Source of the DNA: Aureibaculum sp. 2308TA14-22
GTDB taxonomy: Bacteria > Bacteroidota > Bacteroidia > Flavobacteriales > Flavobacteriaceae
Assembly (NCBI RefSeq): GCF_040538665.1
Contig: NZ_JBEWXT010000001.1
Location: 832,501-896,500 of the forward strand
Reading direction: 5' to 3'
Length of the DNA: 64,000 bases
Shown here: positions 22,122 to 30,841 of the stretch, piece after piece
Layout: every line of letters starts with the position of its first letter
How positions within the stretch are numbered: the stretch's first letter is position 1
The notes under the pieces: generated by a model
Told to the model about the DNA's origin: nothing
Seen by the model: only the letters and a program-made list of their open reading frames with translations
The model's database searches: none
Program-made: the position numbers and the translations under genes

Positions 22122-23657
22122 ATGAAAAAATTACTAATTCTTTTTATCACATTTTCTTTAATTTGTACTGCTTCTGTTGCCCAGAAATCCCCAAAAGTAA
22201 ATCTTAAAAAACTAGATCAATATTATGCAAAAATGGTAAAAGACTGGGATGTGCCAAGTGCTGTTATCGGAATTGTAAAAGACGGCAAACTGGTTTTTAC
22301 CGGAAGTTATGGAGTCAAGAAAATAGGTAAATCAGATACCCCTGATGCCAATACCAACTATGCTATTGCTTCCAATTCCAAAGCGTTTACAAGTGCAATT
22401 TTAGGAATGTTAGTAGAAGAAGGTAAACTCAGTTGGAACGATAAAGTAAAAGACCACCTGCCTTATTTTGCCGTTTACGACCCGTGGGTTAGTGCCAATG
22501 TGACCATTAGAGATTTGTTAAGTCATCGTGTGGGTTTAGGTACTTTTAGTGGAGATGTAATTTGGTACAAGTCTGATTTAAGTGCTGAGGAAATTGTAGA
22601 AAGAGTAAAGTTTGTGCCCAAAGCTTTTGATTTTAGAGCCGGTTATGGCTATTCTAATGTAATGTACATCACCGCTGGAGAGGTAATCCGGAAAATTACG
22701 GGCAAATCTTGGGCAGAAAATGTTAAAGAACGAATCTTTAATCCATTAGGTATGGATAAAACAGTTACTAACCCAAATAAATTAGAAAGTGTTGGTGATT
22801 TTGCAACTCCACACGGGAGGGAGGACGATATAAATATTCCCATTGATTGGGTAAATTGGGAAGAAATTGGTGCTTTGGGAGGCATAATTTCCAATGTAAA
22901 TGATCTTTCTAAATGGATGATTTTAAACTTAAATCACGGTGTTAATGGTACAGACACGTTATTCTCAAAAAATACCAGAAATATGGTATGGAGACCTCAC
23001 AATAATCATTACATAGACCATACCAAAAAGAACGATTTTAACCGTCATTTTAATGGTTATGGGTTAGGTTGGGGCCTGAGCGATTACCATGGCAATTTAC
23101 GGGTAGGGCATACTGGCGGTTACGATGGAATGATTACGGCAATAACGTTGATTCCCGATAAGAACCTTGGTGTCGTAGTGTTAACCAATGGTATGAAAAG
23201 CCCGATTATGGCAGCAACCTATTATGGCTTGGATCAATTTTTGGGCGTTGAAATCGTTGATTGGTCTGCCAAGATGTTAGAGGCCCGAAATAAAAATCAA
23301 AAAGAAGATACACGTATAAGTGATAGAAAAGCGAAACGAAAAACGAATACCGTACCGTCTTTGGAACTCAATGGCTATACGGGCACTTATAAAAGCGATA
23401 TTTACGGCAACATCACCATTTCCAAAAAAGGAGATGAGCTACAAATGGATTTTGAACATTCGCCCGATCTTTCCGCTACCTTGACCCATTGGCATTTTGA
23501 TGTTTTTGAAATCAACTGGAACCAAAAGCACGCTTGGTTTAATTTTGGAACTGTAAAATTTAATCTGGATAACAATTTAAAAGTTTTGAGAATTGATTTT
23601 GATGTACCCAATGATGATATTTTCTTTGAAGAGCTGAAACCATATAAGGTAAAATGA
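22122..23657 (+). CDS. Secreted serine hydrolase, class C beta-lactamase/PBP fold with C-terminal DUF3471-like domain
   Basis: Penicillin-binding-protein-like hydrolase, probably acting on peptidoglycan peptides or small esters or amides in the periplasm. The ATG at 22122 gives a clear signal peptide (MKKLLILFITF to SVAQ); the open frame extends 16 codons upstream, but that start would bury the signal. The SxxK motif is in IASNSKAFT, the Tyr-x-Asn motif is YSN in YGYSNV, and HTGG replaces KTG (VGHTGGYDG). The last 100 residues resemble the DUF3471 domain often attached to such hydrolases. It is separated by 256 bp from the glycan operon, and its stop overlaps the methyltransferase start by 4 bp (ATGA). 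A true beta-lactamase role is possible but not favoured. Confidence 0.85.
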   Translation: MKKLLILFITFSLICTASVAQKSPKVNLKKLDQYYAKMVKDWDVPSAVIGIVKDGKLVFTGSYGVKKIGKSDTPDANTNYAIASNSKAFTSAILGMLVEEGKLSWNDKVKDHLPYFAVYDPWVSANVTIRDLLSHRVGLGTFSGDVIWYKSDLSAEEIVERVKFVPKAFDFRAGYGYSNVMYITAGEVIRKITGKSWAENVKERIFNPLGMDKTVTNPNKLESVGDFATPHGREDDINIPIDWVNWEEIGALGGIISNVNDLSKWMILNLNHGVNGTDTLFSKNTRNMVWRPHNNHYIDHTKKNDFNRHFNGYGLGWGLSDYHGNLRVGHTGGYDGMITAITLIPDKNLGVVVLTNGMKSPIMAATYYGLDQFLGVEIVDWSAKMLEARNKNQKEDTRISDRKAKRKTNTVPSLELNGYTGTYKSDIYGNITISKKGDELQMDFEHSPDLSATLTHWHFDVFEINWNQKHAWFNFGTVKFNLDNNLKVLRIDFDVPNDDIFFEELKPYKVK

Positions 23658-24277
23658 AAGGTTTCAACAGAAAAACACATTGGGAAACCATTTATCGGAC
23701 CAAAAACTTGGATGAAGTAAGTTGGTACCAACCAAACCCTGAAACTTCGTTGTCGTTTTTCAAAAAATACAACATCCCTAAAAATGCCAATATAATTGAC
23801 ATTGGCGGCGGCGATAGTTTTTTGGTGGACTATTTGCTGCAGTTGGGCTATGAACATATTACGGTATTGGATATTTCGGAAAAAGCCATTAACAAAGCCA
23901 AAAAGAGATTGGGCGAAAAGGCAAAAGCGGTGAAATGGATCGTTACCGATATTATTCATTTTAAACCGACCAAAAAATACGATGTTTGGCACGACAGAGC
24001 CGCATTTCATTTTTTAACAAGCGAAAATGATATTAGCCATTACACAACAATTGCCAATAAAAATATAATAAAAAATGGTTTGCTGATTCTTGGAACATTT
24101 TCCGAAAAAGGACCTAAAAAATGTAGCGGAATTGAAATCAAACAGTATTCAGAACAAGAATTGTCAAATCAATTCAAAACGTCTTTTAAAAATCTAGAAT
24201 GTTTTACCTCAAACCATCAAACACCGTTTGACACTACCCAGAATTTTGTTTTTTGTGTGTTTGAAAAAATAGCATAA
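23654..24277 (+). CDS. Class I SAM-dependent methyltransferase
   Basis: Small (207 aa) cytoplasmic methyltransferase. The SAM-binding motif I is IDIGGGDSFLVDYLL (about residues 47-61), followed by an acidic residue after the second strand (VLDISEKAI). The N terminus HWETIYRTKNLDEVSWYQP is typical of a family of unassigned methyltransferases that includes thiol or metalloid detoxifying members. It is translationally coupled to the serine hydrolase (4-bp overlap). Its stop codon touches the terminator of the oppositely transcribed tracrRNA. The substrate is unknown. Confidence 0.8.
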   Translation: MKGFNRKTHWETIYRTKNLDEVSWYQPNPETSLSFFKKYNIPKNANIIDIGGGDSFLVDYLLQLGYEHITVLDISEKAINKAKKRLGEKAKAVKWIVTDIIHFKPTKKYDVWHDRAAFHFLTSENDISHYTTIANKNIIKNGLLILGTFSEKGPKKCSGIEIKQYSEQELSNQFKTSFKNLECFTSNHQTPFDTTQNFVFCVFEKIA

Positions 24278-24300
24278 AAAAGTCCCACCGAAGCGGGACT
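24276..24300 (-). terminator. Intrinsic terminator of the tracrRNA
   Basis: On the minus strand this reads AGTCCCGC-TTCG-GTGGGACT followed by six T. It is an eight-pair stem (with one G-U pair) closed by an extra-stable C(UUCG)G tetraloop and a U-run, a textbook rho-independent terminator. It also overlaps the stop codon of the methyltransferase gene on the other strand, and the hairpin may end that transcript too, although the plus side has no good T-run. Confidence 0.88.
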
Positions 24301-24362
24301 AAAGATTTTCATCTACGGCATATAGCCTTATTGTGATAAGATTAAAGATTAGAAATTTTAAT
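24276..24362 (-). ncRNA. tracrRNA of the type II-C CRISPR system
   Basis: Predicted trans-activating RNA of about 87 nt, transcribed away from cas9. Plus-strand bases 24331-24354 match repeat positions 2-25 at 21 of 24 sites, so the minus-strand RNA can pair with crRNA repeats. One mismatch becomes a G-U pair and two adjacent U-U mismatches form a small internal loop, the bulge typical of such duplexes. Downstream, in RNA order, come a nexus hairpin GGC-UAUAU-GCC (24317-24327), a hairpin AGAU-GAAA-AUCU (24303-24314) and the terminator hairpin (24276-24300). The 5' end near 24362 is inferred from the promoter spacing. This is a direct reading of pairing; processing and expression are not shown. 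Confidence 0.9.
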
Positions 24363-24368
24363 CTGTTT

Positions 24369-24398
24369 CAAATATATAAAAACTCTTGTAAATTTCAA
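24369..24398 (-). promoter_or_regulatory. tracrRNA promoter
   Basis: The minus strand has TTG (plus positions 24396-24398), a 19-nt spacer and TATATTTG (24369-24376). This matches the Bacteroidetes consensus TTG-N17-23-TAnnTTTG exactly. It would start transcription about six bases further on, just before the anti-repeat. It interleaves with the candidate cas9 promoter on the other strand. Confidence 0.75.
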
Positions 24399-24452: not shown

Positions 24453-27400
24453 ATGTCAAAAATTTTAGGATTAGATTTAGGTACCAACAGTATTGGTTGG
24501 GCTATTGTTGAAAAAGAAAAGAGTGAAAAAGATTACACTCTAATTGATAAAGGCGTAAGAATATTTACCGAAGGTGTAAATATTGAAGCAAAAACAAGTA
24601 GTGAAAGTTCTAAAGCAGCACAGCGAACAGATTATAGAAGTGGCAGAAAATTAAAATATAGAAGAAAACTAAGAAAGCTTGAGTTGTTAAAAATTTTATC
24701 TGATAATAATTTGTGCCCAAATGTATCAGACGAAGAATTAAAACTTTGGAGGTATAAGAAAATATATCCTAAAAATAACGAATTTAGATTGTGGTTAAGC
24801 ACAGATAATCAAGATGATAAAATTGAACGAAAAAAACAAATCAAAAACCCTTATGTATTTCGTTTTAAAGCTGCAACTCAAAAGCTTGATTTAAGTAAGG
24901 CAAGTGATAGACATGAATTAGGCAGGGCCTTTTATCATATAGCCCAAAGACGAGGTTTTTTAAGCAATAGGTTAGATACTTCAGATAATTCTATTGTCGA
25001 GGAAAAAAACAGTGAAATTGAAGAGATTATTCAGCAATCCAATACTTCGGAAGAACTATTAAAAACGTATGATATTTTTTTGGAAACTTATGATAAAACA
25101 GAAGCCAACAGTAAAGCTTTGTTTACTTTAGGTAGAGCATTTAAATCTATTTTAAAAGAAAACTCAAATAAAGAATTCGACACTGTAAAAGAGAAATTAC
25201 TAGAACGCTTAAATCGTAAAGAATTTTTAGGCAAAGTTAAAAGTGCTATTAGTGATTTGTCTGCAAAAATAGAAGGGGCAAATTGTAACACATTAGGAGA
25301 ATATTTTTATGGTTTACATAAGGAGGGAAAAAGAATCAGAAATAATTATACGCATCGTGAAGAACATTATTTGCATGAATTTCATGCTATTTGCGATCAA
25401 CAAAATTTACCAATTGCACTAAAGGCAGCTATTGAAAACGCTATCTTTTACCAAAGACCACTAAAGTCTCAAAAAGGATTAGTTGCAAAATGTCCATTGG
25501 AAAATGATAAGGCTTGTGTACCTATTTCGCATCCAGATTTTGAACTGTTTAGAATGTACGGTTTTATTAATTCAATAAAAATAAAGTCGGCGGAAGAAGA
25601 CAAATTAAGATTTTTGAATACCGACGAAAAGCTAATTATAGAACCTCTTTTTTATAGAAAATCTAAACCAAATTTTGATTTCGACGAGATAACAAAAAAG
25701 TTAACACCAAAATATGTAACATCTGGTTATTATAAAGACAAAAACGCAAAAGAGTTTGATGTGTTATTCAACTTCGGAAATTATACAAATGTGAGTGGTT
25801 GTCCAACAATTTCAAATCTGATGTCTGTTTTCGGAAACGATTGGAAAATCTATTTAATTCAGAATTTTAACAAAAAGAATAAGGACAATTCTAGTAAAAC
25901 AGAACATCAAATAATTGATGCTATTTGGCATGTGCTTTTCAGATTCGATAAAACCGAAAAATTGAAACAATTTGTTATCGATTATTTAGGATGTGATGAA
26001 AAAGTGGCTACAAAATTTTCGAAAATAAAACTGAAACAAGATTATGGCTCGCTAAGTTTGAAAGCTATTCGTAACATTTTACCATATTTAGAAAAAGGCT
26101 TGCTGTATTCGCATGCAGTGTTTTTAGCAAATATGAAAACAGTTTTACCACAAGATGTTTGGAAAAATGAAGATGATAGAAAAGTTATAAATAATGAAGT
26201 GTTTTCAATAATAGAGAATTATAATGCCTATAGAAGCACAGTTGACATAGTAAATGGAGTAATAGCTAATAAAAATAAAAAAGAAACTTGGAACAATAAG
26301 AACGGTTTTGTTATTGAAGCTTATAGAAAAGACATTGATAAAAATGTTAAAGACTATTATGGTTTACAACGTTGGGATTCCTTTTCAGAAGAAGAAAAAG
26401 TAACTATTTTAAAAGATAGTTTTGAACTCTTCTCTACTCAAATGGAATTAAATTCAGGTCGAGGTCAATTCTTAAAAAAAGAAACATTAGATGAACGTGT
26501 AAAAGAATTTTTAAGAGACAACTTTAATATTAGTGAAGATAGTTTGAAAAAACTCTACCACCCATCTGCCATAGAAGTTTATAAAAAAGCAAAACGCAGC
26601 GATACAGATGGTAAACTATATTTAGGAAGTCCGCTTATATCTTCTATTAAAAACCCGATGGCAATGCGTACACTTCATCAATTGCGTAAAGTGATTAACC
26701 AATTAATAAAGGATGATGCCATTGACGAAAACACGATTGTGCGTATTGAAATGGCAAGAGAGCTAAAAAGTGCCAACGAAAGAGTGGCTATAAAACAATG
26801 GCAAAACGACCTTCAAAATAATAAAAAGGAATATATAGAAGCCATAAAAAAACTCTATAAAGAAGATTGCGGATTGGACATTGAACCGTCTCAAGATGAG
26901 GTTTTAAAATACCAACTTTGGCTTGAGCAAAATAGAATTTGCCTTTACACAGGTAAAACAATAAGTATTTGCGATTTTATTGGCTCAAATCCAAAATTCG
27001 ATATAGAACACACCATTCCAAGAAGTAAAAGTTTAGATAATTCGCAAACTAATAAAACGCTGTGTTGTTCAATATATAATAGAGATGTTAAAAAAGATAA
27101 AATACCAACAGAATGTAAAAACCATGAAGACATCATGCCAAGAATTAACCATTGGTATGCACAATATAAAAATTTAGAAAATCAAATTATAAGTATTACT
27201 AAAAAAGTAAGAGCAGCAACCACAAAAGAGAATCGAGACAGTTACATCCAAAAAAGAACAAAACTTCGTTTTGAATATAACGACTTAAAGCATAAGTATA
27301 AAACTTTTACAATGACTGAAATCCCTAGAGGATTTAAGAATAGTCAGTCTGTAGATATTGGTATTATTAGCAAATACGGAAATTTGTTTTTAAAATCATT

Positions 27401-28760
27401 GTTTACAAAAGTATATCCTGTAAAGGGGAAAACAACGTCTAATTTAAGAGATATTTGGGGATTAGATAAAAAAGAACGGATTAACCATGCACATCATGCA
27501 AAAGATGCTGTAGTTGTGGCGTGCTGCTCTAAAGATATTAACGATGCATTAGCAGAATATTATCATAATTACGAAGATTATAAGTTTTACGGAAAGCCAA
27601 AGCCATCATTTAAACATCGAATACCATGGAAGGGTTTTAACTACGATGTTAAAAATTTTGATGATAATACATTAATAAGTCATCATACACCAGATGTATT
27701 ACCTATACAAAGTAAAAAAGCCATTCGTAAACGTGGCATTATTCAAAGAAACAAAAAAGGAAAAATTAAATACCAACAAGGCGATACTGTTAGAGGTGCT
27801 TTACATAAGGAAAGTTTTTATGGTGCAATAAAAAGAGAAGAAACTAATAAAAAAGGGGAAACAGAAGACGTTATTAAGTACGTATTACGAAAACCTTTGG
27901 ATAGTTTTTCGGATACAGACTTAAAAAACATTGTTGACGACAGAATAAGAGAAATTGTTACTAATGGTCGAAAACAAGAAAAAACAATAAAGAAAGAAAT
28001 TGAAAGATTAAAAAAGCAAATTAATAAAGTAGATGACACTGAAGAAGAGATAATAAGAGATCAAATAAAAGTACTATCAAGTAAGATTGAGAATGGACTT
28101 TATGTATTACCAAACAAAAACGGCAATCCAATACCAATAAAAAAGATTCGATACTTTACAAAAGATGTAAAAGTGCCATTAGAAATAAAAAGGCATCGTG
28201 ATATATCAAGACATGAACACAAGCAATATTTTTTTGCTAAAAACGACAGTAATTATTGCATGGCAATTTATGAAGGGATTGATGCAAATGGAAAAGTAAA
28301 ACGATCCAATCTATTAATTAATAATTTAGATGCTGGCAGTTATTTTAAAAGAAGTAATGAAAACAATGAAATATATCCAATTGCACCAGAAAAAGATGAA
28401 AATAATAATCCTTTAAAGTATGTTTTAACAAAAGGAAAAATGGTTTTAGGTTATGACAAGTCCCCTGATGAATTGTACGAAATGGATGAGACGCAATTGC
28501 TCGAACGTTTATTTCAAATTACGCAAATGGATGTTGAAAAATCTGCTGAAATAAAATTATTGCATCATTCTGAAGCAAGAGAAAAGAAGGTATTAACGAA
28601 ATTTATGGGTTTAAAAAGTGGAATGAAAGGTGGAAAAAACATAGGCGAGTATAAAAAATATCCTTGGATAAAAATTGGTGTTAATAGTTTTGATTGTCTT
28701 GTAGAAGGTTATGATTTTTACATATCACCTACTGGAAAGATAAAGTTTTTAGATTTGTAG
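24453..28760 (+). CDS. cas9: Cas9 endonuclease, type II-C (Bacteroidetes group)
   Basis: RNA-guided DNA nuclease that cuts DNA matching array spacers, using crRNA and tracrRNA. RuvC-I is at the N terminus (ILGLDLGTNSIGWAIVE, Asp8). It is followed by an Arg-rich bridge helix (near 55-80, RSGRKLKYRRKLRKLELL), a long REC lobe, and RuvC-II (VRIEMAREL, Glu766). The HNH domain has FDIEHTIPRS with catalytic His853 and a following NRDVKKDKIP. RuvC-III is HAHHAKDAVVVACC with His1015 and Asp1018, and a PAM-interacting C-terminal region completes the protein. All catalytic residues are present. At 1435 aa it belongs to the large Cas9 forms seen in Bacteroidetes. No csn2 or cas4 is nearby, which fits subtype II-C. 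The PAM cannot be deduced from sequence. Confidence 0.98.
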   Translation: MSKILGLDLGTNSIGWAIVEKEKSEKDYTLIDKGVRIFTEGVNIEAKTSSESSKAAQRTDYRSGRKLKYRRKLRKLELLKILSDNNLCPNVSDEELKLWRYKKIYPKNNEFRLWLSTDNQDDKIERKKQIKNPYVFRFKAATQKLDLSKASDRHELGRAFYHIAQRRGFLSNRLDTSDNSIVEEKNSEIEEIIQQSNTSEELLKTYDIFLETYDKTEANSKALFTLGRAFKSILKENSNKEFDTVKEKLLERLNRKEFLGKVKSAISDLSAKIEGANCNTLGEYFYGLHKEGKRIRNNYTHREEHYLHEFHAICDQQNLPIALKAAIENAIFYQRPLKSQKGLVAKCPLENDKACVPISHPDFELFRMYGFINSIKIKSAEEDKLRFLNTDEKLIIEPLFYRKSKPNFDFDEITKKLTPKYVTSGYYKDKNAKEFDVLFNFGNYTNVSGCPTISNLMSVFGNDWKIYLIQNFNKKNKDNSSKTEHQIIDAIWHVLFRFDKTEKLKQFVIDYLGCDEKVATKFSKIKLKQDYGSLSLKAIRNILPYLEKGLLYSHAVFLANMKTVLPQDVWKNEDDRKVINNEVFSIIENYNAYRSTVDIVNGVIANKNKKETWNNKNGFVIEAYRKDIDKNVKDYYGLQRWDSFSEEEKVTILKDSFELFSTQMELNSGRGQFLKKETLDERVKEFLRDNFNISEDSLKKLYHPSAIEVYKKAKRSDTDGKLYLGSPLISSIKNPMAMRTLHQLRKVINQLIKDDAIDENTIVRIEMARELKSANERVAIKQWQNDLQNNKKEYIEAIKKLYKEDCGLDIEPSQDEVLKYQLWLEQNRICLYTGKTISICDFIGSNPKFDIEHTIPRSKSLDNSQTNKTLCCSIYNRDVKKDKIPTECKNHEDIMPRINHWYAQYKNLENQIISITKKVRAATTKENRDSYIQKRTKLRFEYNDLKHKYKTFTMTEIPRGFKNSQSVDIGIISKYGNLFLKSLFTKVYPVKGKTTSNLRDIWGLDKKERINHAHHAKDAVVVACCSKDINDALAEYYHNYEDYKFYGKPKPSFKHRIPWKGFNYDVKNFDDNTLISHHTPDVLPIQSKKAIRKRGIIQRNKKGKIKYQQGDTVRGALHKESFYGAIKREETNKKGETEDVIKYVLRKPLDSFSDTDLKNIVDDRIREIVTNGRKQEKTIKKEIERLKKQINKVDDTEEEIIRDQIKVLSSKIENGLYVLPNKNGNPIPIKKIRYFTKDVKVPLEIKRHRDISRHEHKQYFFAKNDSNYCMAIYEGIDANGKVKRSNLLINNLDAGSYFKRSNENNEIYPIAPEKDENNNPLKYVLTKGKMVLGYDKSPDELYEMDETQLLERLFQITQMDVEKSAEIKLLHHSEAREKKVLTKFMGLKSGMKGGKNIGEYKKYPWIKIGVNSFDCLVEGYDFYISPTGKIKFLDL

Positions 28761-28809
28761 GAATTAAGTAAGTTCATTGACATAAAGTATTCTAGTTATT
28801 AAACGACTA

Positions 28810-28842
28810 AAACCACAACGCGAGGAACGAGCGTTGTGGTTT
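28810..28842 (+). terminator. Hairpin at the upstream edge of the array
   Basis: AAACCACAACGC (28810-28821) pairs perfectly with GCGTTGTGGTTT (28831-28842) around a nine-base loop. The right arm is the first ten bases of CRISPR repeat 1 plus two bases before it. The 12-bp stem lies 50 bp after the cas9 stop and could end the cas9 transcript. It would also mask the tracrRNA-pairing end of repeat 1 in a read-through RNA. There is only a short T-stretch after it, so termination is not certain. Confidence 0.6.
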
Positions 28843-29329
28843 GATTAAAGATTAGAATTCACGATATTTTTAATCCTGATACTGATGGCGTAGGTATTGT
28901 TGTGGTTTGATTAAAGATTAGAATTCACGATATTCTTTCAATTGAACATACCCAGTCAATTAGAGTTGTGGTTTGATTAAAGATTAGAATTCACGATATT
29001 ATCTTTTATTGTTTATATAAACAGACCTTCGTTGTGGTTTGATTAAAGATTAGAATTCACGATATTCAACACGCACATTTTATAAATGGATAGATGTTGT
29101 GGTTTGATTAAAGATTAGAATTCACGATATTCAGGCTTACAATGTTTATAATGCACTCCCTGTTGTGGTTTGATTAAAGATTAGAATTCACGATATTAAA
29201 AAAAGAGCAGAACAAATAAAGCAAGCTGTTGTGGTTTGATTAAAGATTAGAATTCACGATATTTTGTCCACAGTACAAAAGGAGAAAGATTCCGTTGTGG
29301 TTTGATTAAAGATTAGAATTCACGATATT
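28833..29329 (+). CRISPR. Type II-C CRISPR array, eight repeats and seven spacers
   Basis: Eight identical 36-bp repeats begin GTTGTGGTTTGATTAAAG and end ATTAGAATTCACGATATT. They start at 28833, 28899, 28965, 29031, 29096, 29162, 29228 and 29294. Spacers are 30 bp, except the fourth at 29 bp. The repeat's first 25 bases pair with the tracrRNA found upstream of cas9, which fixes the crRNA sense as the plus strand. Only 72 bp separate cas9 from repeat 1, so there is no room for a long conventional leader on that side. The conserved, duplicated element lies on the other side (from 29330). All repeats are perfect, and the only degenerate copy is outside the array at 29504. Confidence 0.97.
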
Positions 29330-29439
29330 GGCTGTGCCGTTAGCCTCTGATATTGATGTGTTTAGTAAGAATATCGTTTAAAAAAAATGCTTCTTTTTTG
29401 TAGTGATAAGACAAGATTGGGGCATTTTTTTGTTTTAAA
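29330..29439. repeat. CRISPR flank element, copy 1 (leader or terminator candidate)
   Basis: This follows repeat 8 directly. It is repeated at 29533-29641 with near-identical blocks: GCTGTGCCGTTAG, TGATATT, AAGAATATCGTTTA, an A-run with TGCTTCTTTTTTG, AGTGATAAG and CAAGATTGGGGCATTTTT. Two short blocks between them vary. It contains AATATCGT (29370-29377), the inverse of the repeat end, and a distant inverted pair AAAAAATGC/GCATTTTTT (29382-29390 and 29422-29430). It may be the leader or a terminator-like array boundary. Confidence 0.85.
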
Positions 29440-29503
29440 TGTGGTTTACAAACACCGCATATAAATTTTAAAGCGGTGTGTTTGTGAATCTCCCTTTGAT
29501 CGA
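29440..29503. other. Short segment separating the two flank copies
   Basis: The 64 bp between flank copy 1 and the repeat remnant start with TGTGGTTT, which equals repeat positions 3-10. They then hold an imperfect inverted repeat (ACACCGC near 29453 and GCGGTGT near 29473, with ACAAAC/GTTTGT extensions). This could be a small insertion that split a former repeat, or just a spacer remnant. No coding capacity is seen. Confidence 0.4.
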
Positions 29504-29532
29504 TTTGATTAAAGATTAGAATTCACGATATT
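29504..29532 (+). repeat. Truncated CRISPR repeat (3' 29 nt)
   Basis: Identical to repeat positions 8-36 (TTTGATTAAAG through CACGATATT). The first seven positions do not match (TGATCGA instead of GTTGTGG). It lacks part of the tracrRNA-pairing end but keeps the end that touches the flank element, and flank copy 2 follows in exactly the same phase as after repeat 8. It is a relic of a second array end or of a segmental duplication. Confidence 0.85.
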
Positions 29533-29641
29533 AGCTGTGCCGTTAGTGGTTGATATTTAAGGTTTTATTGAAGAATATCGTTTAAAAAAATGCTTCTTTT
29601 TTGCAGTGATAAGGCAAGATTGGGGCATTTTTGTTTTTAAA
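29533..29641. repeat. CRISPR flank element, copy 2, abutting cas2
   Basis: Second copy of the 110-bp element described at 29330, beginning right after the truncated repeat and running into the cas2 stop codon (29637-29639 on the minus strand). AATATCGT is at 29574-29581. The inverted pair AAAAATGC (29586-29593) and GCATTTTT (29625-29632) lies just after the cas2 stop and could act as its terminator in the minus direction. The match ends where cas2 begins, so this is probably the original copy. Confidence 0.85.
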
Positions 29642-29966
29642 ACAATTCCAACTGCATGGGCGGAGGGTCTTTGGGGGCTTCGGCTCTGCCCCAAAAATTC
29701 ATGATATTTCCGTATTGTTTATCGGTAATCCGTAAAATACTCACTTTGCCCAAAGGGGGCAATAATTGTTTTATCCGTTTTTCGTGCACATCGGTACTTT
29801 CGCTACTGGCACAATGTCGCATATAAACGGAAAACTGCATCATGGTAAATCCGTCCTTGAGCAGGTTTTTTCTAAATTGCTGTGCGTTCCGCCTGTCTTT
29901 TTTGGTATCGGTCGGTAAATCAAAAAATACAAATAGCCACATAATTCTATATCCGTTTAATTCCAT
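29637..29966 (-). CDS. cas2: Cas2, spacer-acquisition subunit
   Basis: Small ferredoxin-like protein that forms the integrase complex with Cas1. The 109-aa sequence begins with the Cas2 strand RIMWLFVFFDLPTDTKKDRR (conserved Asp near residue 16), followed by FRKNLLKDGFTMMQFSVYMR and GKVSILRITDKQYGNI, all typical of type II Cas2. Its start overlaps the cas1 end by 10 bp, so the pair is translationally coupled. It is transcribed toward the array, opposite to cas9. The stop lies inside the last bases of the duplicated array flank. Confidence 0.95.
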   Translation of the reverse strand: MELNGYRIMWLFVFFDLPTDTKKDRRNAQQFRKNLLKDGFTMMQFSVYMRHCASSESTDVHEKRIKQLLPPLGKVSILRITDKQYGNIMNFWGRAEAPKDPPPMQLELF

Positions 29967-30841
29967 AACTTAGGATAAATAATTTTTTTCGCCTTTCCTG
30001 AAAAGCATTGTTGTAACGAACTTGTGGTAGTGGATAACCCTACCATTAATGGGCTTTTTTTATCCTTAAAATAAACTGTTTGGGTCAATATATTTAAAAG
30101 CTCGGCCTTTATTGGCGTTATCAACGCTTCTTCATCATAGTTTTCCATAATTTCAATTACTTTGGCATCTACTAAGGGGCGAAATGGTTCCATAATATCA
30201 TCTGCCAAACAAAAAGCATTGTATTTATTGCGGTGATTTATACCCAAAGTGTTTAACAGTCCACTACCCGATAAAGCTCTGGCAACGGCTGCTCTTAAAA
30301 TAATATAGCCGTAGTTTAAAAACAGATTGGGGTAAACACCATAGCGTTCTCTTTTAAAATCGAAGTCAAAAATATGTTTCCAGTAATAGGCTGCGGCCGC
30401 TCCTTCACGATTATCACTATCACCGCTTAAAACCTTTGAGGCATAATATTCTAAAGGGTTTGAATTTCTGTCCTGTGCATTTAAAAGTTGAGCCTGATTT
30501 TTTATTTTAGCCCTAATTACTTGTTTCCACAATTGTTTTTTTAATGGTTCGGTCGCATTTACCTGATTTTTAAAATGTTCCTGCTGAATATAGTGGCCGT
30601 CCAAATTCAAGAGCATGCTTTTGGGCATGTGTTTTTCATCACAAAAAATAACACTTACATTATTTGCCGTGAGTTTGGATAGTGCCGGAACGGAAATATA
30701 GGTTTCTTGATTTTCGATAACAACATACCCAATATCTTCAATGGGTACGGTTGTTTCTTTTTCGGAATTTTTGATGACGAGCTGTTCGTATTTTGTGGTA
30801 AGCGAACATTTGTTGCCAAAGAATAAGGTTCGTTTTAGCAT
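29957..30841 (-). CDS. cas1: Cas1 integrase, type II
   Basis: Metal-dependent integrase that inserts new spacers. It is 294 aa with the N-terminal beta domain (TLFFGNKCSLTTKYEQLVI, VPIEDIGYVVIENQETYIS) and an alpha-helical catalytic domain. The expected metal ligands are present: Glu in REGAAAAYYW (near 146), His in GINHRNKYNAF (near 201) and Asp in ADDIMEPFRPLVD (near 213). It is the first gene of a cas1-cas2 pair on the minus strand. A TATATTTA box about 20 bp upstream (plus 30861-30868) is a possible weak promoter, suggesting expression separate from cas9. No csn2 or cas4 follows, which supports subtype II-C. Confidence 0.97.
   Translation of the reverse strand: MLKRTLFFGNKCSLTTKYEQLVIKNSEKETTVPIEDIGYVVIENQETYISVPALSKLTANNVSVIFCDEKHMPKSMLLNLDGHYIQQEHFKNQVNATEPLKKQLWKQVIRAKIKNQAQLLNAQDRNSNPLEYYASKVLSGDSDNREGAAAAYYWKHIFDFDFKRERYGVYPNLFLNYGYIILRAAVARALSGSGLLNTLGINHRNKYNAFCLADDIMEPFRPLVDAKVIEIMENYDEEALITPIKAELLNILTQTVYFKDKKSPLMVGLSTTTSSLQQCFSGKAKKIIYPKLWN

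Follow-up and report, generated by a model that had tools for sequence, protein, structure and literature searches.

The tracrRNA of a type II-C CRISPR locus in Aureibaculum and a conserved array-start hairpin that may hide the first repeat from it

In type II CRISPR-Cas systems, no spacer belongs to the repeat that is transcribed first, and an "extraneous" crRNA can arise from it. Which RNA pairs with the repeats of the type II-C locus of Aureibaculum sp. 2308TA14-22, and what becomes of the first repeat of its array? We addressed these questions in a window of 64,000 nt (the whole stretch of DNA analysed: NZ_JBEWXT010000001.1, positions 832,501-896,500 of the forward strand), in which the locus comprises the following features:

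24276-24362, minus strand: tracrRNA gene, with anti-repeat, nexus, GAAA-loop hairpin and C(UUCG)G terminator (exact ends putative)
24369-24398, minus strand: promoter-like sequence TTG-N19-TATATTTG of the tracrRNA, from a motif search
24453-28760, plus strand: cas9, 1435 aa, of the type II-C kind (Pfam and NCBIfam)
28833-29329, plus strand: CRISPR array with eight identical 36-nt repeats and seven spacers of 29-30 nt each
29637-29966, minus strand: cas2 (open reading frame list, Pfam and NCBIfam)
29957-30841, minus strand: cas1 (open reading frame list, Pfam and NCBIfam)

The Cas9 of the window matches NCBIfam TIGR01865 at 417.8 bits; the solved structure nearest to it by sequence is 9ar4 (E 1.7e-34), and one of similar length is CbCas9 (8iyq, 1442 aa, E 8.6e-19). 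Gelidibacter salicanalis has a Cas9 that is 86% identical to that of the window. An earlier note on this DNA had spoken of a small Cas9, which is wrong for a protein of this size. Between cas9 and cas1, cas2 apart, there is no open reading frame of at least 80 aa, csn2 and cas4 having been sought in that interval only. The polarity of the array, with the leader next to repeat nt 36, follows the description of F. columnare (excerpts of PMC8092290). The six spacer-phage matches are all weak (E 0.1-0.4), their hosts are unrelated and they were taken as chance, so no PAM was derived. On the other side of the locus, a class I SAM-dependent methyltransferase gene (Pfam Methyltransf_31, 23654-24277) runs towards the tracrRNA gene, and its stop codon overlaps the U-run of the latter.

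The tracrRNA gene is divergent from cas9. Co-folding of the repeat with the minus-strand RNA from 24276-24362 yields a duplex of -28.4 kcal/mol over repeat nt 1-8 and 11-25, with a U-U/U-U internal loop at repeat nt 9-10 between them; a hand count from the predicted structure gives 21 Watson-Crick and two G-U pairs. The earlier note had placed a tracrRNA on the minus strand opposite cas9 and had described its pairing as repeat positions 2-25 with 21 matches and one G-U: all the parts it listed lie where it had put them, and the duplex is the same one, less the outermost G-U pair. The RNA also folds as the note had claimed, into a nexus, a GAAA-loop hairpin and a C(UUCG)G terminator with its U-run (z -3.34), and the terminator is found by a separate terminator check as well. 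The 15-nt pairing stretch has ten exact places in the 3.57-Mb genome, namely the tracrRNA gene, the eight repeats and one half-repeat at 29507; the note would have taken a better anti-repeat elsewhere near the locus as a refutation, and the genome-wide search gave no second exact trans anti-repeat. With one mismatch allowed there are three places, and with two there are many; a control pattern gives similar numbers. A shorter cis anti-repeat on the plus strand (28810-28819) was rejected as a rival tracrRNA because it is part of a hairpin at the array start, described below, and has no scaffold behind it. Just before or at the tracrRNA start (24364-24339, minus strand), AGATTAAA can pair with the anti-repeat TTTAATCT (8 bp predicted) and is kept as GATTAAA in many relatives; modelled in this way, it could mask the tracrRNA anti-repeat or mimic a repeat.

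Relatives were fetched by Cas9 alignment, the best 80 of 180 matches being kept, and they number 79. Among these best 80 of 180, a tracrRNA core lies upstream of cas9 on the opposite strand in 71 of 79 relatives (72/80 with the window included), at a median distance of 128 nt from cas9 and at 100-145 nt in 53 of the 72 loci. Three coreless loci (L042, L078, L097) have little upstream sequence, and L052, L069, L101, L106 and L108 show no core even when four substitutions are allowed; L108 does carry an anti-repeat, together with a longer nexus. Some II-C loci of the Bacteroidota kind stand in MAGs labelled Bdellovibrio, Actinomycetota, Woesearchaeota, Limnohabitans, Desulfobulbaceae, Spirochaetes and Calditrichota (L042, L052, L054, L061, L067, L099 and L100); these are probably in part binning errors and possibly cases of transfer.

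The covariation check suggested in the earlier note, run on 39 of the 45 distinct tracrRNA sequences, came out in its favour. Of 581 cells in the three hairpins 99.7% are paired, two-sided changes number 65 where shuffles give 18.6, and RNAalifold, unaided, recovers the same three helices from the 39 relatives. The nexus is uninformative in this respect because it never varies, and the signal comes from the other two helices. Eight of the 39 aligned tracrRNAs, scattered among them, have a GUACUC-type loop in the terminator instead of the C(UUCG)G one (L034, with AUACUC, and L043, L049, L051, L080, L093, L096, L102). The anti-repeat changes with the repeat: repeat nt 11-24 fit the anti-repeat of their own locus in 211 of 252 cells (18 distinct pairs), where 10000 swaps average 169.6 and never exceed 199. 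The count is ungapped and leaves several rows, L050, L054 and L064 among them, out of register. Clear co-changes are seen in L046, L049, L051, L076 and L098. Because the loci are related, the cells in these pairing counts are not independent.

The consensus promoter claimed for this RNA is present as a motif at 24398-24369, and taken by itself it does no better than chance in the window: the bipartite motif occurs four times against 2.59 expected, 28 of 100 shuffles reach as many, and its frequency led us to reject it as a stand-alone proof. Across loci, on the other hand, 50 of 72 have a TAnnTTTG box between -39 and -33 relative to the tracrRNA core, as do 0.5% of control positions, and 21 of the 72 have the full TTG-N19 motif, which is present in 0.8% of control windows. 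The box of the window agrees with the promoter of Bacteroidetes described for F. psychrophilum (excerpts of PMC10309648). With this promoter-like motif before it, the RNA is putatively transcribed; that Cas9 needs it for its activity is likewise putative.

Position, pairing, fold, covariation and repeat/anti-repeat co-change all agree with the identification of the RNA as the tracrRNA of this II-C Cas9, and we regard it as practically certain that 24276-24362 is a real tracrRNA gene. It is also an ordinary one, a member of a kind already known, to which the putative II-C tracrRNA of F. columnare (PMC8092290) and the Fp2Cas9 tracrRNA tested in vitro (PMC12609912) belong. The excerpts of these papers, and of that on the R. 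anatipestifer anti-repeat (PMC5006608), likewise describe an anti-repeat RNA encoded upstream of cas9 in Flavobacteriia. The U-U loop of the window duplex is comparable to the crRNA U-bulge reported as essential for Fp2Cas9 (PMC12609912, in excerpt). As far as these excerpts go, the window tracrRNA differs from the F. columnare, Fp2Cas9 and R. anatipestifer ones in sequence, and it goes with a 36-nt repeat whereas the repeats served by the tracrRNAs in F. psychrophilum and R. anatipestifer are 46-47 nt long. The earlier note considered such scaffolds rarely annotated: Rfam indeed gives no match in the window at the gathering threshold, yet a Flavobacterium II-C tracrRNA has already been used in vitro (excerpts of PMC12609912). 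The tracrRNA supplies a guide scaffold ready for use with a divergent Cas9 of 1435 aa and is otherwise expected.

The first repeat of the array is preceded by two further elements:

28770-28784, plus strand: AAGTTCATTGACATA motif before the array, a possible part of an array promoter (putative function)
28810-28842, plus strand: array-start hairpin, with the 5' cis anti-repeat arm at 28810-28821, the loop at 28822-28830 and the 3' arm at 28831-28842

The hairpin sequence, directly 5' of the first repeat and running into it, is AAACCACAACGC-GAGGAACGA-GC|GTTGTGGTTT; it is predicted to form a 12-bp stem (-18.0 kcal/mol, z -5.8) whose 3' arm takes up nt 1-10 of the first repeat, its guide-adjacent end. 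An intrinsic terminator was rejected because no U-run follows the stem. The AAGTTCATTGACATA motif sits about 33 nt before the hairpin, and TTGAYAT, found within 130 nt of the first repeat in 27/27 hairpin loci, 16/29 others and 3.3% of control windows, may be an array promoter. A wider role of AGTTCNTTGACATA as a general promoter of the genome is unsupported, with one exact place in the whole genome, before the array, and 12 one-mismatch places against nine in all for a control.

We compared the best helix between the 100 nt upstream and repeat nt 1-15 with those of 500 dinucleotide shuffles. Arrays were detected in 59 of the 80 loci; L051, L059 and L069 (no upstream sequence, or N) were left out, which gives 56, with the first repeat set by hand for nine loci and L101 entered as p=1 without extracted sequence. 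The window gives p=0.006, and p falls below 0.01 in 29 of the 56 arrays, against 0/56 when nt 16-36 are used as a control. A AAACCACAAC arm is common to 25 of the 29; L077 (p 0.044) and L110 (p 0.086) were counted by this arm, so that 27 loci carry the hairpin, L084 and L108 (helices outside the family) and L091 and L096 (split first repeat) not being among them. These 27 belong to 48 tested arrays of the 36-nt repeat type.

The presence of the hairpin follows the state of the first repeat. It is found with 27 of 36 intact first repeats and with none of 12 degenerate ones (Fisher 4e-6), a test partly dependent on the flagging itself because a degenerate repeat weakens the pairing used for the flag. 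The exact AAACCACAAC arm, sought regardless of the repeat, occurs in one of the 12 degenerate loci, L076, where it lies upstream of a split first repeat. Nine of the 36 intact first repeats have no hairpin, and in three of these loci (L038, L048, L094) a decayed repeat can be seen by eye one spacer upstream.

The part of the stem outside the repeat, positions -1 to -6, was not used in the shuffle test that picked most loci. Its sequence differs widely with its pairing kept: 97 of 114 cells pair (17 do not) over 19 distinct arm pairs from 34 loci, seven of them from a search of 397 genomes of the window's family. By comparison, 10000 arm swaps average 74.7 and never exceed 90, and slid arms never exceed 70; position -5 occurs as A-T, T-A, G-C and C-G. 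Of the 397 genomes, a set overlapping the first one (L113, that is G149, and L058 are alike in their arms and upstream sequence), 18 have the exact 24-nt repeat; eight, the window's own included, hold the exact hairpin pattern, once each, against none for the reversed control, G029 escaping this exact pattern. On a Cas9 tree built by a quick method from 53 of the 56 loci, the hairpin label is clustered (8 of 500 shuffles are as low) and needs 13 changes, at least 10 of them well supported, with L091 mislabelled "hairpin" by the threshold only; the hairpin has thus been gained or lost repeatedly. In related genomes, none of eight arrays with other repeats has it (L122 and L127 being doubtful as to array or orientation). 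A ninth further array, L129, is of the 36-nt type and has a decayed first repeat and only a decayed arm, as expected if the hairpin and the decayed first repeat trade off, which makes 0/9; L126, one L131 array (no upstream sequence) and one unoriented L122 match stood outside this test, and no array was detected in the remaining fetched stretches. The hairpin seems confined to the 36-nt repeat lineage.

What would the hairpin do to the tracrRNA? In co-folding, the predicted probability of tracrRNA pairing at nt 1-8 of the first repeat has a median of 0.00 in 26 flagged loci, against 0.55 for their internal repeats, the values of L084 (1.00) and L091 (0.36) being those of loci flagged at p<0.01 outside the hairpin family. 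It is 0.98 for intact first repeats without hairpin (15 loci) and 0.18 for degenerate ones (nine loci), and in the window 0.00 for the first repeat against 0.68 for the internal ones. At nt 11-25 of the first repeat the tracrRNA is still predicted to pair (0.90-0.99), which makes the predicted block a partial one, confined to the lower stem.

In the model we propose, the tracrRNA would be transcribed away from cas9 and its 5' half would pair with every repeat of the array transcript, while the nexus and the two 3' hairpins, judging from sequence and covariation, would serve as scaffold and terminator. Loading and trimming of the tracrRNA/crRNA would proceed as in known type II biology. The array transcript would start with the cis anti-repeat hairpin burying nt 1-10 of its first repeat, where the tracrRNA would reach nt 11-25 only, so that the lower stem next to the guide could not form. 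The first, "extra" repeat, without its own spacer, would then likely yield no extraneous crRNA, and later repeats would still pair.

Past the array lie two leader copies and a split repeat:

29330-29440, plus strand: leader copy 1, from sequence comparison, the leader-proximal end of the repeats being nt 36
29441-29532, plus strand: split repeat, made of a repeat-like GTGGTTT, an inserted hairpin and then repeat nt 11-36
29533-29642, plus strand: leader copy 2, about 84% like copy 1 (counted from the alignment)

The insertion falls at the position of the tracrRNA internal loop. Among the best 80 of 180 matches, 12 loci have a split repeat, just after the array in the window, L058, L071, L072, L077, L098, L103 and L107, and at or near the array start in L061, L076, L091 and L096; its second half is not recognisable in L072 and L077. 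In eight loci it lies 110-132 nt past the array end, in the window between the two leader copies, and it is tandem in L107 (three, 209 bp apart), L058 (two) and L071 (six, at multiples of 239 bp). A split repeat with its own leader is perhaps the start of a second, spacerless array.

Hairpins over a first repeat are known elsewhere. In II-A, an upstream RNA pairs with the extra repeat (Liao 2022, as related in PMC12080349), and a leader-repeat hairpin has been shown in type VI-B and its relatives, with Cas13 (excerpts of PMC13187072). As described there, and as predicted for the window, RNA ahead of the extra repeat base-pairs with it at the start of the transcript and would prevent extraneous crRNA; the II-A hairpin, however, lies at the leader end by the newest spacer, and that of the window is leader-distal, by the oldest. 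With the polarity taken from the excerpts of PMC8092290, the leader copies (29330-29642) are at the array end opposite to the hairpin, which by analogy would work like the II-A hairpin but, for this reason, is not the II-A leader element. In II-C, guide-side hairpins, terminators and mutated extra repeats counter extraneous crRNA (PMC12080349), upstream/extra-repeat hairpins were not identified in the survey of that paper, and its main text is without the words Flavobacter-, Bacteroid- and Capnocytophaga. The window element shares with those of PMC12080349 the subtype and the array end, and its stem also covers guide-side nt -1 to -6, a part that could have been counted in the "guide hairpin" class of that paper; unlike guide hairpins, the core of the window stem is repeat nt 1-10. 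The degenerate first repeats of the relatives match the mutated extra repeats of the survey. The logic of a repeat-hiding hairpin is therefore known and, as far as we found in the open-access literature, it is new for II-C.

Two other readings of the hairpin deserve attention, and we hold each of them to be unlikely. It might be a neutral relic of an inverted repeat copy, the tracrRNA alone being of importance: the arm resembles the reverse complement of the repeat start, and palindromes can be kept by repair rather than by selection, such quasipalindrome correction being able to imitate compensatory change. A relic would hardly be restricted to intact first repeats or keep pairing while its non-repeat stem diverges so widely, and the label changes forced across the Cas9 tree (at least 10, L091 being mislabelled) also speak against it. 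The hairpin might just as improbably act on DNA or on array transcription, as a cruciform, a boundary to spacer integration at the wrong end or a stabiliser of the RNA 5' end, rather than against the tracrRNA. Indeed, it could be the 5' end of the transcript because it lies about 33 nt after the conserved TTGAC motif, and tests of sequence and pairing do not tell RNA from DNA; such roles, however, would hardly account for a stem that reaches exactly nt 1-10, the stretch the tracrRNA needs, or for its absence where the first repeat is degenerate. As for the tracrRNA itself, that 24276-24362 is a conserved terminator or a regulatory antisense RNA of the cas9 promoter, with the true tracrRNA elsewhere, is extremely improbable, for although its 5' extension AGATTAAA may mask part of its own anti-repeat and self-guiding long tracrRNA forms exist in II-A, the genome has no other exact anti-repeat stretch, the scaffold co-varies over 39 sequences and the RNA changes together with each locus's own repeat.

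We come back, then, to an array-start hairpin directed against tracrRNA pairing. This hairpin exists, is conserved and co-varies, it occurs where the first repeat is intact and nowhere else, and over nt 1-8 it is predicted to beat the tracrRNA; its action as RNA and its role in suppressing extraneous crRNA are inferred. On the modelled pairing we lean towards the view that it hides the first repeat from the tracrRNA, and it is probable that the window combines the tracrRNA of a complete II-C locus with a hairpin that hides the first repeat and suppresses extraneous crRNA. That the hairpin, the hairpin-split repeat and the decayed repeat can stand in for one another in shielding the extra repeat from the tracrRNA in the 36-nt Flavobacteriia II-C lineage, II-C thus having a repeat-hiding hairpin, is a proposal for which we see an even chance.

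In conclusion, this is on the whole a known system with a variant feature, in which the hairpin matters more than the tracrRNA. It would bring to II-C a mechanism already known from II-A and type VI, with the hairpin at the other array end; if the array start is indeed a dedicated control element, hairpins that hide a repeat would occur in II-C, where the published survey identified none. Furthermore, since the hairpin accompanies most intact first repeats and is missing with decayed ones, the cost of extraneous crRNA would become testable in nature.
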